Positions 12,907 to 19,167 of a stretch of DNA of 35,113 nucleotides are shown piece after piece. The notes beneath the pieces are model-generated. The model ran no database searches and was not told where the DNA came from. It saw only the letters and a list, made by a program, of their open reading frames with translations. The position numbers and the translations under genes are program-made. The first letter of the stretch is position 1; the number at the start of each line of letters is the position of its first letter. Origin of the DNA: Nitrosopumilaceae archaeon (GTDB taxonomy: Archaea > Thermoproteota > Nitrososphaeria > Nitrososphaerales > Nitrosopumilaceae); contig JANQNN010000037.1 of assembly GCA_028279545.1 (NCBI GenBank), positions 1 to 35,113 on the forward strand. The letters are read 5' to 3'.

Positions 12907-15387
12907 ATGAAATTTTTGCTAGTAATAATGCTAGCTTTAGTAATTTCCATCATAGGGGTTAATGAAACCTTTGGGGAAAAAGGCACCTACTTTGATTCCG
13001 TAAAATTTATTCAATATCTTGATGAGAATACCGCTTTAGAAGAGGTAAGAAATGGAAATCTCGACATTTATTATTTTAGAATTCCTGCAGACCGGTTAGA
13101 AAACGCCCAGGCAAGAGAAGGGTTAGATGTTTTTTCATCAACCAGTGGATCTTATAGTATCCTTGTAAATCCAGCAGAAACTGAGAAATTTAACCCATTT
13201 TCTATCCAAGAAATCAGATTTGCCCTAAATTATCTAGTTGATAGAAAATTGATAGTAAATGAACTCATGGCAGGCTATGGAGGCCAGATGATCTCCCAAT
13301 ATGGTCCCTTTGATCCAGAATACCTAACAGTGATTGAGGATTTAGAGAAATTTAATTTCAGATACAATCCTTCATTAGCCCAAGAGATAATCACCAAAAA
13401 TCTCAATGAAGTCGGTGCAACCCAAATTAATGAAAAATGGTATTTTGAGGGAGAACCAATTGAATTAACATTTTTTATTAGAAGTGATGATCCAGTAAGG
13501 AAATCCATTGGAGAAATTTTATCTTCTGAGTTAGAGAACGCAGGATTTACTGTAAAAAGAGAATTTGGGGATTTGAATAAAGCATTTGTAGTTGTTTATG
13601 GTTCTAACCCAGCTGATTTAGAGTGGAGCATATACACTGAAGGTTGGAATAAGTCAGTTTTTGTAAAATATGACTCTGTAACCTTGGGACAAATGTATGC
13701 GCCTTGGTTTTCAAATATGCCTGGATTCAATGTTCCCGAATATTGGAATTATCAAAACGAATTACTTGATTCATTAACACAAAAAATCTATACGGGCGAT
13801 TTTGGATCATCCAAAGAACGAGAAGAATTAATTCAAAAAACAATTGTTGAAGGTGTAAATGAATCTGTGAGGATTTTTCTAGCAAGCAAAATTGATCAAT
13901 ATGTAGTAAATGAAAAAATTCAAGGGGTTGTAAATGATTTTGGTGCAGGAGTCCCAACTAGGTTTACTCCAATAAATGCTCAAGGAGACAAAGATGAATT
14001 GATAATTGGTGTAAAACAGATTTATCAAGGAGCTTGGAATCCTATAATGGGATTTAGTGATAGTTACAGTAGACAAATTTGGACTATACTTTCGGATCCA
14101 TTAACATTCAAACATCCTTTCACCGGAGAAACTATTCCAATTCGTGGCAGTTGGGATGTAGAAACAGCTGGTCCAGATGGATTTTTGGAACTTCCTAATG
14201 ACGCAATAATGTGGGATCCCATTACCCAATCCTGGGAAAAAGTGTCAGAGGATTCACAAGCAATTAGCAAGGTTACATTTGATTTTGATTTTAGTGATTG
14301 GCACAATGGTCAAAAGATGGATATGAACGATGTTTTGCATTCCTTGTATTTTACTGTAGAGTGGGGAACTCAAACTGATGAAAATGATAAAACCTTTGAT
14401 GACGAATACACTCCACGTGCTGCCCAATCAGTGGATACTTTAATTGGAGTCAGAATAATTGATGAAAACACAATTGAGGTTTATGTTGATTATTGGCATT
14501 TTGATGAGGGAGAAATTGCAGAATGGGCAACGGTATGGAATACTATGCCTTGGGAACTATTTGCAGCTATTGAAAATGCGGTGATAGACGGAAAAGTTTC
14601 CATTTCAAGATCAGGTGCAGCAAACAAAAACGTCAATTGGTTATCTCTTATAATCCCAAAAGATGCCCAAGAAATACAGAACTATCTAAAACAATTTAAA
14701 CAAGAAAATTATATTCCAACCTCCTTAAAGGGCCTAGAAACAGATGTAGAGTATTTTAATGAAAGATATTCTGCAAGCAATGATTGGATTTCAAAAAATA
14801 ACCATGCCATAATAAGCAATGGGCCATACTACCTAAATTCCTATTCACCAGAATCAAGAACAATTAGTGTATCAGCTTTTGAGGATCAAACATATCCCTT
14901 CAAAGCTGGACATTGGTCAGAATTTGAGCATACAGAATTTCCAAAAATAATTGAAATACAATCTCCAAATTTAATTCAAAAAAATGAAGAATTAAAAATC
15001 AATATCAAAACAATTCACACTGATTCAATTCTATTTTTCTTGAACAATAATAATGGAGAGGTAGTCGTATCAGAAAGAATACAAATTGAGGAAAATCCTA
15101 CAATGATTAAAATTTCTGGGGAACATACCAAAGAATTAGGAATAGGAGCAAATGATCTAAAAATTTTTGCAATATCAAATTCTGTTTTAAAACCTGATTT
15201 TTATTCAACTAGTTTTCTTGTTTCAGAGAATCAAAATCAATTACCTACCATAATGGAAGAAGATATTCAATTTCAAGAAAAGGATCAATTAGAATTTTGG
15301 ATTATTATCCCAATATTAATTATTATTATTATTGTAATAGTTTTATTGAAAAAAAGAGTTAGTAAAGTCCAAAATCCTTTAGAATAG
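12907..15387 (+). CDS. Membrane-anchored extracellular solute-binding protein (SBP_bac_5-like) with swapped halves
   Basis: An 826-residue protein with a signal peptide (1-23), a large extracellular part and a C-terminal transmembrane anchor (about 796-818, WIIIPILIIIIIVIVLL) ending in a basic tail. It resembles peptide/nickel ABC-transporter binding proteins, but in an unusual order. Residues 28-345 read like the second half of the family: ALEEVRNGNLDIYYF, then IQEIRFALNYLVDRKLIV and A-x-x-I-I. Residues 365-690 read like the first half: FSDWHNGQKMDMNDVLHSL (normally W-x-DG-x-P-x-TA-x-DV), RIIDENTIEVY, and SNGPYYLNSYSPESRTI (normally GTGPY). About 690-780 is a beta-rich stalk. No permease or ATPase lies nearby. 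The 3' end overlaps convergent tsr3 by 29 bases. Confidence 0.8.
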   Translation: MKFLLVIMLALVISIIGVNETFGEKGTYFDSVKFIQYLDENTALEEVRNGNLDIYYFRIPADRLENAQAREGLDVFSSTSGSYSILVNPAETEKFNPFSIQEIRFALNYLVDRKLIVNELMAGYGGQMISQYGPFDPEYLTVIEDLEKFNFRYNPSLAQEIITKNLNEVGATQINEKWYFEGEPIELTFFIRSDDPVRKSIGEILSSELENAGFTVKREFGDLNKAFVVVYGSNPADLEWSIYTEGWNKSVFVKYDSVTLGQMYAPWFSNMPGFNVPEYWNYQNELLDSLTQKIYTGDFGSSKEREELIQKTIVEGVNESVRIFLASKIDQYVVNEKIQGVVNDFGAGVPTRFTPINAQGDKDELIIGVKQIYQGAWNPIMGFSDSYSRQIWTILSDPLTFKHPFTGETIPIRGSWDVETAGPDGFLELPNDAIMWDPITQSWEKVSEDSQAISKVTFDFDFSDWHNGQKMDMNDVLHSLYFTVEWGTQTDENDKTFDDEYTPRAAQSVDTLIGVRIIDENTIEVYVDYWHFDEGEIAEWATVWNTMPWELFAAIENAVIDGKVSISRSGAANKNVNWLSLIIPKDAQEIQNYLKQFKQENYIPTSLKGLETDVEYFNERYSASNDWISKNNHAIISNGPYYLNSYSPESRTISVSAFEDQTYPFKAGHWSEFEHTEFPKIIEIQSPNLIQKNEELKINIKTIHTDSILFFLNNNNGEVVVSERIQIEENPTMIKISGEHTKELGIGANDLKIFAISNSVLKPDFYSTSFLVSENQNQLPTIMEEDIQFQEKDQLEFWIIIPILIIIIIVIVLLKKRVSKVQNPLE

Positions 15388-15882: not shown

Positions 15883-18800
15883 TTACTCTAATTGTGAATA
15901 GTTGATTTTGTAATAAAGGCGTGACATTTGGTCTTCTTTTTCTACTTGAATATTCCACTCCGTATCAGGTAACAGTGCAGTAGATGACTCAGGTAAAATG
16001 GAGAATTTTTCCACTCGAGCATCTGGACCGCTATACCTAACCTTCAGGCTAACACCATCTACTTCTACAATATCATAAATCTCTCCTGGTTTTCTAGTAG
16101 ATTCTTGTACCAAGCAATTAACTTGTGAACCAATTACACAAACACCTGATTCAGAAGTTATTCGAAGGTTTACGTTGGGTTCTTCTCCACGTGGTGAGGT
16201 TATCAAGGTACCCAACAAAACTCTAGGCCCAGCAGAAACTCCTTCAAATTCTTTTTGCTCAGTGTTTATTGAAATTTGATTCTCTGATATTCCATTAACT
16301 TTTTCAATTATGATTTGTTTAGGTGTTTCATCAGTTTGTAATTCCAACACCTCAAACTGAAGAGTTTTGGTTTCAAAATCTGACTCAACCGTTACTTCGT
16401 AAGTTCCAACACTGTCAGAAGACTCTGGAATTGAAAATTGGAAAGAAAAAGATCCATTTGGACCTGGTCGAATAGTTGTAACTGGTCCTTCATGAATTCC
16501 ACAAATAAAGGATCCACAGGTAATTTCAGTACCAGTCTTTTTAAAAACACTTACTTTGTATTCTTCCAGGTAAATCAATTTGTTGGGTTTTCCAGCAATA
16601 AATACTTCTTCTCCTGGAGAATATTGAGTCTTATCAGATGAAACCAACAAAGAAATTGGCTCATCACCGCCAAAAGTAAATTCATTTACTACACCAAAGG
16701 AAGAAGTTGCTTGTCTTTGTAGGTATTGTGCTTTAACTTTGTACTGTCCTTCACTGAAAATTGTAATTGGTAATTCAAAATCGCTTTTGAAATTTCCGCC
16801 AAGATCAGGATAAACTGATGCTTGGTGAATAGGAACTGTAGGTTTCATTTCAGAGGTGATAGTTAAATGAACTCTTTCAGGTACTACGAGACCTTCACTG
16901 CCTTGCTCTCTAGGGATTACAGATCCTAGAACTTTTAATACCTCTCCTGCAGTATAGATTGATTTACTTGTAGACACATCCACAGGTACAATTGACAAAG
17001 TGTCATTGTTAGGATTTAATGAGACTTTGAAAAAAAGATCTTTTCCAAATGAAGGAGTGGAGACATGAATTTTGTAAACTCCAATATTTGTAGTAGATAA
17101 TGATCTATCATCTACTTTTAGGTTAGGTTGAGACTCGTAAATGGGGGCAACCCAAGACCAAGAGAATCGTTGATTATCCACCAAGGCTCCAAAATGACTT
17201 ACACTACCATCTGGTTTTGTGAGAGATATTGATACGGTTGTATCAGGAGTTGGAGGTAAAGTTCCAGTAAGAAGAACTGTTTCACCGAGGCCAAAAATTT
17301 CTTTATTTAAAAATATTGGATCATCTCCTTTTGCATCCAATGAATCAGCTACAGAAAATATGGTAGATTTTGAAAGATTAAGATATTTTACAGTTACAAG
17401 ATATTGACCTTCATCAAAAATACTTCGGTTTAGTTGAGTGGAAACAGAAAAACTTCCAGATGGGTCAGGTATTGCTGTAAAATCATATGAAACATTAGAA
17501 CCAGTAGTTCCAAGTCTTCCTCCACCTGTATCACCAATTATTGTCAAAGGATTTCCGTCTCCATCTTTAATTGATACCTCCACAACAGGAACAGTCGCAG
17601 TTGATTGACTCAAATTTTCAATAACACCATTAATTGTTATTTTATCTCCAAAGTCATAAACAGGTTTATCAGTGAAAACAGAAAGTGGCTCTGTGGATTT
17701 TACATATGTTGAGGGATCATCTGCTACGGTTATTACTTTAATTGCTGTTCCAATTTCTTTTGAAACTTTTATTCTATAATCTCCTAATCGTTCAATCCCC
17801 TCTGGAATTTCAAAAGAATAATTGAATGAACCGTCTCCCTCTAATCTTACAACTTCTATAATTTTAAAGGCGAAATCTCCCCCAGCAAAATCATGTACTC
17901 CTAAGGCAGTATTTCGCGTTTGTAGAATTTCTAAATCTAGGGAGCTTATCCAAAGATCATTTACTCTTCCGGTTATTGATACATTGTCTCCTATAGCATA
18001 CACATCCCTATCTGTCCACAATGATATTGGAGTTTCCTCTTTTTCATCCTGGATTAATTGAAAGGTAAATTCTGTCTTATCTGAATATTCTGCAGTTAAA
18101 ACATATGTTCCATAAACTGGATTAACAGTTGTTAAAAATATTGTTCCTGAAAATTCCCCATCGGTTGGGTAAAGAGTTCCTGAGGCCACCAAACTCCCAT
18201 TAGGATCCCTTAATTCATACTCTAACCCTTCAAATGGAATTACCTTAGAAGTAGTTCCTGAAATGGATACTGTTTCACCTGGAAGATATTGGGACTTGTC
18301 AGTACTAATATTAAAAATGAGTTCATCTGGAACTTCTAATTCCTGAATTTCATTTCCAACAAAAAAACTTGTAGATGATGTGGAACCTGCATAACTTACC
18401 GTTACATCATAAACACCTTCATTAATTCCAAGAACCGGATGTAAACTTAGGCTTGTTTCAAAATTCAAATTGTAATCAGGATAAAGTAAAATATTTGAAT
18501 TGAATTCTGGTCCTGAAATTGAAACGGTAATTGATTCTGGTTTAAAATCTCCTTGTTGGACTTTGAATACTTTTTCAGAAATATTTCCTTGAAGAATTGC
18601 TGTCTCACCAAAAACATAATTTGGTTTTATGGAATTTATTGTAACTGAGACCTCTGTTGCTTCATCAACTTGTGGGATTTTTCCATTTGATGAGCCAGCA
18701 GTTGATTTTTCAAATTTCCAATCATCAGTACTGTCAAGATCAAAACCATCATAGATTCTTTGCCAAGAAGTAAAGTCGTTTTGAATATCCGTTAGCAATA

Positions 18801-19167
18801 TGGTTTTATCAACTACGGTGTTGTTTTCATCTCTAAGTTCTATTATTTCATTGATGTCTGTAAACCAAACCGTTTTGTAGGAAAATGTTAGAAACTCTCC
18901 TGCCTCAATTATCGTTCCGGGAGAAATCTCCATTGTTTGTTTTAGAACACTTGTAGATGCAATCTTCCAATTGCTAATATTCACATCAGAATCAGTTGGA
19001 TTGTAAAGCTCCACCCATTCTTTTGGAGAGGATGAATCATCACCCGGGGGGTTAATATCAACCTCATTGATTACAATAGTATCAGAAATTGCGGATTGAG
19101 CACTTGCTGGATAAACAAAAAAGGCTAAAACTAGAATTGAAAATAATATAGTGATGTTCCTAATCAT
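15883..19167 (-). CDS. Large exported lamin-tail-domain protein with seven beta-sandwich repeats
   Basis: A 1094-residue protein with a signal peptide (1-24, ending PASAQS). Residues 28-165 form a lamin-tail (LTD) domain: TIVINEVDINPP, KEWVELYNPTDSDVNISNWKI and a later W-x-R motif. Then come seven repeats, each opening with a pattern like S/T-D-K-x-x-Y-x-x-G-E-x-V-x-I-x-G, at about residues 183, 289, 389, 505, 625, 739 and 850, so the period is 100-120 residues. These are macroglobulin/Ig-like sandwich domains. The last 130 residues form a different beta domain without a transmembrane anchor. Role: probably a long cell-surface or S-layer-associated adhesin or stalk, which is inference. TTTATT about 24 nt upstream supports a leaderless ATG. 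Confidence 0.75.
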   Translation of the reverse strand: MIRNITILFSILVLAFFVYPASAQSAISDTIVINEVDINPPGDDSSSPKEWVELYNPTDSDVNISNWKIASTSVLKQTMEISPGTIIEAGEFLTFSYKTVWFTDINEIIELRDENNTVVDKTILLTDIQNDFTSWQRIYDGFDLDSTDDWKFEKSTAGSSNGKIPQVDEATEVSVTINSIKPNYVFGETAILQGNISEKVFKVQQGDFKPESITVSISGPEFNSNILLYPDYNLNFETSLSLHPVLGINEGVYDVTVSYAGSTSSTSFFVGNEIQELEVPDELIFNISTDKSQYLPGETVSISGTTSKVIPFEGLEYELRDPNGSLVASGTLYPTDGEFSGTIFLTTVNPVYGTYVLTAEYSDKTEFTFQLIQDEKEETPISLWTDRDVYAIGDNVSITGRVNDLWISSLDLEILQTRNTALGVHDFAGGDFAFKIIEVVRLEGDGSFNYSFEIPEGIERLGDYRIKVSKEIGTAIKVITVADDPSTYVKSTEPLSVFTDKPVYDFGDKITINGVIENLSQSTATVPVVEVSIKDGDGNPLTIIGDTGGGRLGTTGSNVSYDFTAIPDPSGSFSVSTQLNRSIFDEGQYLVTVKYLNLSKSTIFSVADSLDAKGDDPIFLNKEIFGLGETVLLTGTLPPTPDTTVSISLTKPDGSVSHFGALVDNQRFSWSWVAPIYESQPNLKVDDRSLSTTNIGVYKIHVSTPSFGKDLFFKVSLNPNNDTLSIVPVDVSTSKSIYTAGEVLKVLGSVIPREQGSEGLVVPERVHLTITSEMKPTVPIHQASVYPDLGGNFKSDFELPITIFSEGQYKVKAQYLQRQATSSFGVVNEFTFGGDEPISLLVSSDKTQYSPGEEVFIAGKPNKLIYLEEYKVSVFKKTGTEITCGSFICGIHEGPVTTIRPGPNGSFSFQFSIPESSDSVGTYEVTVESDFETKTLQFEVLELQTDETPKQIIIEKVNGISENQISINTEQKEFEGVSAGPRVLLGTLITSPRGEEPNVNLRITSESGVCVIGSQVNCLVQESTRKPGEIYDIVEVDGVSLKVRYSGPDARVEKFSILPESSTALLPDTEWNIQVEKEDQMSRLYYKINYSQLE

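Follow-up and report, generated by a model that had tools for sequence, protein, structure and literature searches.

In this study, we investigated a window of 35,113 nucleotides from a Nitrosopumilaceae archaeon, by which we mean the whole stretch of DNA that was analysed, with attention to the gene at positions 12907-15387 of the forward strand. The gene is a single uninterrupted reading frame of 826 amino acids, and a genome-wide search detected it as the only SBP_bac_5 gene of the source genome. Its product displays, in this order, a signal peptide, the late half of a solute-binding fold, the early half of the fold, an Ig-like domain and a C-terminal membrane helix. The features are given below, with TkOppA denoting the natural-order archaeal OppA of T. 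kodakarensis (PDB 7fi3, endogenous pentapeptide bound).

12907-15387, forward strand: solute-binding protein of the SBP_bac_5/OppA type, assigned as circularly permuted, 826 aa (Pfam, 7fi3 comparison, profiles and model)
12907-12978, forward strand: predicted signal peptide, residues 1-24, with a hydrophobic helix at 2-18 (hydropathy and model)
12976-14001, forward strand: late half of the natural fold, first in the chain, residues ~24-365, corresponding to TkOppA 310-722 (Pfam, 7fi3 and profiles)
13999-14019, forward strand: new junction, a short linker between what were once the C-terminus and the N-terminus, residues ~365-371 (profile boundaries and sequence)
14002-14976, forward strand: early half of the natural fold, second in the chain, residues ~366-690, corresponding to TkOppA 12-305 (profiles and 7fi3 fold match)
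14977-15231, forward strand: Ig-like beta-sandwich domain leading from the binding fold to the anchor, residues ~691-775 (model, conserved profile match and fold matches)
15232-15288, forward strand: flexible linker with low pLDDT, residues ~776-794 (model)
15289-15366, forward strand: C-terminal transmembrane helix, residues ~795-820, with a short tail after it (hydropathy and model)

The motifs WHNGQKMDMNDV and SNGPYYL both lie within the early half (14002-14976), and the C-terminal membrane anchor claimed in the preliminary description was recovered as the helix at residues ~795-820. Near the binding-protein gene, on the reverse strand (15883-19167), the window also harbors a gene for an exported protein whose 1094 amino acids include a lamin-tail domain and two stretches of the MG2 type.

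With reference to the SBP_bac_5 family (PF00496), the protein scored 93 bits against a curated cut-off of 32.4, and comparison of its halves with the model placed the later part ahead of the earlier one: model positions 138-351 correspond to residues 20-252 (83.8 bits), and positions 29-140 gave a weak match in the downstream part that stays below the cut-off (15.4 bits). In several relatives, among them G029, G014, G005, G015 and G035, the swapped pair shows up directly in the matches to the curated Pfam model. The elements known from cluster C, the OppA-DppA-NikA group, namely the R-x-A-x5-DR helix and the W-H-x-G...D and G-P-Y elements, are all present in the window protein and are cyclically shifted with respect to the family order, which suggests a permuted subclass rather than a plain family member.

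Comparison with TkOppA gave the same picture at higher resolution of the chain. A phmmer search matched 7fi3 in two swapped pieces, residues 371-684 to chain positions 17-327 (101.6 bits) and residues 27-274 to 320-592 (81.7 bits), with a total E-value of 4e-51. A diverse profile of 20 homologues placed 382-681 on chain positions 12-305 (173 bits) and 31-374 on 310-722 (206 bits), so that the 732 residues of 7fi3 are covered once and nearly end to end, with few residues between the two pieces. Each part of the SBP_bac_5 fold is present once, and the collinear family order is absent from the protein in both the 7fi3 and the profile comparisons. Both halves align to TkOppA over nearly the whole chain at ~22-26% identity, and the distinctive early half and the YTEGW motif are common to the two proteins; TkOppA, however, retains the natural half order, whereas the window protein is swapped and ends in the Ig-like domain and the membrane helix. 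A profile of 85 homologues gave 189 and 196 bits for the two halves on a single TkOppA, and on TkOppA doubled in tandem it produced one uninterrupted collinear match of 385 bits over profile positions 23-668, indicating a cyclic shift and neither tandem copies nor a chimera. The remoter binding proteins AgaA, AppA and YliB show the same short motifs in the natural order against the swapped profile.

The preliminary description had read the two halves as standing in swapped order, and this is borne out by the two exchanged pieces of 7fi3, with each part occurring once. Its proposal of a circular permutation is very strongly supported by sequence, profiles, predicted structure and 156 homologues. 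Neither a single collinear match in the normal order nor two full tandem copies appeared in the comparison with 7fi3, and tandem copies are ruled out because 7fi3 is covered once and not twice and the doubled TkOppA gave one match.

The AlphaFold2 model of the 826-aa protein, obtained from 62 homologues and no templates, reached a mean pLDDT of 91.2 and a pTM of 0.86, with uncertainty confined to the leader, the linker at ~783-795 and the last residues. The top PDB match of the whole model in Foldseek was 7fi3, with only 402 columns aligned, as is to be expected of a sequential program when one half of a chain has been displaced. Folded alone, the second half with the Ig-like domain (pLDDT 92.9, pTM 0.85) again displayed 7fi3 as its top fold match, over 302 columns with an rmsd of 2.4 and an E-value of 5e-19. 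All the top PDB fold matches of the whole model were cluster C proteins, and the separate second-half model also finds cluster C first. Residues ~691-775 matched Ig-like/SoxY folds, and a Foldseek search of a viral library gave nothing beyond Ig-like domain matches for this stalk. Profile annotation and sequential structure searches detect one half only, so that the early half is overlooked.

Taken with the partner genes discussed below, the gene very probably specifies the substrate-binding component, with a circularly permuted SBP_bac_5 fold, of an ABC importer of the oligopeptide (Opp) type, and the 826-aa product is most likely the membrane-tethered binding protein of the only Opp-type importer of the genome. 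In such a permutation, the old N- and C-termini would have been joined and the chain reopened in a lobe I loop just before the YFDSVKF strand. The position just before this strand agrees with the earlier proposal, but its placement at the inter-lobe hinge does not hold, as we take the cut, from the structure of bacterial OppA, to fall in a loop of lobe (domain) I. A cut in that loop need not change the opening and closing of the lobes. The late half would supply the second lobe together with a portion of lobe I, the remainder of which, like the extra domain, would come from the early half. The protein would be exported through its signal peptide and held by the Ig-like stalk and C-terminal helix at the outward side of the membrane, near OppB/OppC; an oligopeptide-like solute would be caught between the two lobes, as in ordinary OppA, and passed to the OppB/OppC channel encoded elsewhere in the genome, with two OppD/F-type ATPases driving it.

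The swapped order is extensively distributed. A single-sequence search detected homologues of the 826-aa protein in 48 of the 61 relative genomes, mostly at full length, and phylum-wide a match was noticed in 211 of 300 genomes, many covering nearly the whole query. When the half-profiles were applied separately, in a survey that left out Thermococci, Halobacteriota and Asgard, the permuted order was found in 156 distinct proteins versus the natural order at 2 loci, and the profile of the Ig-like domain matched 145 of the 156. These 156 extend from ammonia-oxidising archaea and other Thermoproteota to several phyla of bacteria. Permuted SBP_bac_5 proteins are thus common rather than rare, being the usual form of the family in the relatives sampled. 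Among the best 80 loci in the named genome collection, all 80 were permuted, although in one the gene is divided by a broken frame. They include archaea (Pyrodictium, Pyrobaculum, Caldarchaeum, Nitrosocaldus, Nitrosopumilus and Nitrosopelagicus) and bacteria (Bipolaricaulota/Acetothermia, Calidithermus of the Deinococcota, Caldilineae and other Chloroflexota, Spirochaetota and Poribacteria), and many of them come from metagenome bins in which a stray contig is possible, whereas Calidithermus is represented by strains in culture. Families f9 and f10, of the same order as the source genome, harbor divergent versions in which Pfam positions 146-351 precede 17-141 and which the single-sequence search missed.

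Several variants were observed during this survey. The divergent permuted proteins of f9/f10 (genomes G044, G045 and G059) are ~820-840 aa long, with apparently several copies in G045. In Wolframiiraptor gerlachensis (L133, 7980-10556), the permuted gene lies in two reading frames of 283 and 537 aa, separated by a frame interruption. The bacterial homologues at L145, L151, L171, L177 and L179 keep the Ig-like domain and display no obvious C-terminal membrane helix, suggesting that the stalk is conserved without the anchor. An apparent loss of this helix in some Nitrosopumilus members proved to be a threshold effect, their tails carrying short hydrophobic helices.

A permease gene was detected within 400 bp on the same strand at 74 of the 117 loci examined, and in divergent orientation at 6 more. 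In distant relatives the binding-protein gene normally adjoins oppB (~350 aa) and a long oppC (~450-500 aa), and in the Nitrosopumilales loci L140, L153, L167 and L182 an oppB of 350 aa and an oppC of 453-454 aa lie directly downstream; other members are without the operon, and in many Nitrosopumilaceae the binding-protein gene stands alone. The source genome holds an oppB-oppC pair on another contig (G000:C49, L061 5116-7532), with lengths as in the relatives, and the best matches of this pair include the operon-borne genes of the four Nitrosopumilales loci. The pair has no binding-protein or ATPase gene as a neighbour, and its OppC of 454 aa displays a long segment before residue 268, where the conserved permease domain begins. 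Two OppD/F-type ATPases with an oligo_HPY tail are encoded on contigs C25 and C4, so that binding protein, permease and ATPases are spread over four contigs and the pairing of binding protein with permease in this genome derives from orthology and co-occurrence. The remaining PF00528 permeases of the genome have phosphate-type (C13) or other non-Opp neighbours. Of the 61 genomes, 52 gave matches to both SBP_bac_5 and OppC, 7 gave neither, among them a genus reduced to 0.8 Mb, and 2 were discordant; shared descent inflates this co-occurrence. In closed genomes the binding-protein and oppBC loci are ~300 kb apart in G012 and adjacent in G017, indicating that the separation is genuine and due to operon dispersal.

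These observations weigh against the earlier suggestion of a receptor rather than an importer, which had been drawn from the lack of a nearby permease. A membrane-anchored receptor or sensor of this kind would bind its solute and feed no transporter, and its C-terminal anchor would have a role in signalling or in surface display. It would explain why no permease or ATPase gene stands beside the reading frame within the window, why the model ends in an anchor and why the gene is solitary in many Nitrosopumilaceae. We nevertheless consider it improbable, because the majority of distant relatives and several Nitrosopumilales have oppBC directly beside the gene, the source genome itself contains oppBC orthologues and oppDF-type genes, the two families co-occur with only the two discordant cases, and the G012 and G017 arrangements point to a dispersed operon. 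C-terminal anchoring is, besides, ordinary for archaeal Opp-type binding proteins. A permuted importer that is otherwise unchanged might carry a non-peptide cargo, such as a metal chelate, a sugar oligomer or another solute. Besides peptides, the ligands of SBP_bac_5 proteins include nickel chelates, chitin oligomers, EDTA and opines; structures of this kind appear in the list of fold matches, and the best curated (NCBIfam) name match is nickel-type, though far below threshold at 36 of 600 bits. Against this, the one close relative of known structure, 7fi3, contained a peptide in the crystal according to its structure title, and the permeases belong to the OppB/OppC type and the ATPases carry an oligo_HPY tail, although nickel systems fit these too. 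We regard a non-peptide cargo as possible but rather unlikely; it is kinship with TkOppA that suggests a peptide as the probable ligand.

Two further readings concern the swapped order itself. The protein could be a chimera of the second half of one solute-binding protein and the first half of another, with no true permutation of a single gene. Nothing positive speaks for it except the unequal Pfam scores of the first and second parts, and this weakness of the early half is shared by the natural-order protein L214, where the Pfam match begins at position 101. Moreover, 7fi3 is the closest relative of both halves at similar strength, all other solved binding proteins trail it widely (374 versus 55 bits), and the halves fold together with high confidence, making a chimera very improbable. 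A rearranged contig or a frame error in sequencing, assembly or annotation might be considered, as the source is a draft genome of 57 contigs. The unbroken reading frame and the same order in closed genomes and in the 156 distinct proteins reduce this to a negligible chance, and we treat an artefact as already refuted by the conservation of the order.

The circularly permuted importer protein may be compared with TpMglB-2 (Tp0684) and its relatives, which are naturally circularly permuted glucose-binding proteins with the proposed name 'Type Ic' and for which tethering was noted as a possible reason for the permutation (PMC4990184). In both cases a tethered binding protein of the ABC type is permuted in nature, and TpMglB-2 still binds its ligand. 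They differ in that TpMglB-2 has a Type I / cluster B fold and a sugar ligand, only its last ~70-100 residues have moved and there is no sequence kinship; the Type I / cluster B periplasmic binding fold is not found in the window protein, in keeping with its cluster C fold matches. Natural permutation of ABC binding proteins is documented for the type I class, and our data add a second, unrelated case in the large OppA class. We found no report of permuted family-5 binding proteins or permuted archaeal OppA in the open-access literature, and as far as that literature goes, the permuted form, which is widespread in archaea and present in some bacteria, is apparently undescribed. It also has a bearing on how the abundant ammonia-oxidising archaea might acquire organic nitrogen.

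Three natural-order relatives were recognized, namely TkOppA and two loci of one crenarchaeal genus, L214 and L215. The protein of L214 (G305:C11, 7877-10123, reverse strand) has 748 aa and consists of a membrane helix, a T/P-rich linker, the early half and the late half, where it ends; the half-profiles match it at 162 and 257 bits. Its gene opens an operon that also contains oppB, an oppC of 434 aa and two genes for ATPases. L214 thus resembles the permuted relatives in both half-profiles and in its opp operon, and differs in its natural order, its N-terminal membrane helix and the absence of an Ig-like domain. The natural and permuted forms have the long-oppC kind of permease in common and carry the anchor at opposite ends.

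A late-half tree with ordinary SBP_bac_5 proteins as the root gave TkOppA no firm position. Constraining all permuted rows to one clade was not rejected (p-AU 0.70) and improved on the free quick tree by 7.85 log units, and the permutation may accordingly have a single, old origin with TkOppA and the two crenarchaeal loci outside it, a scenario that these trees allow but do not establish since the natural-order rows and the outgroups are long branches. A tandem duplication followed by loss of the outer halves, which had been put forward earlier, is a possible route that looks the same as other routes from here, and no intermediate of it was found among the homologues surveyed. We advance with reserve a broader idea, in which a single ancient permutation might have given rise to a separate and very widely distributed subclass among the OppA-type importers. 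The tether would have shifted from the beginning of the fold to a break within lobe I, alongside an Ig-like stalk and a long additional segment on OppC, so altering the docking on the permease. Ammonia-oxidising archaea and much of the Thermoproteota would then have this subclass as their main Opp system. The permuted proteins offer a clean natural experiment on the effect of chain order and of the side of tethering in a binding-protein-dependent importer, and L214 is a natural comparator for the side of anchoring.
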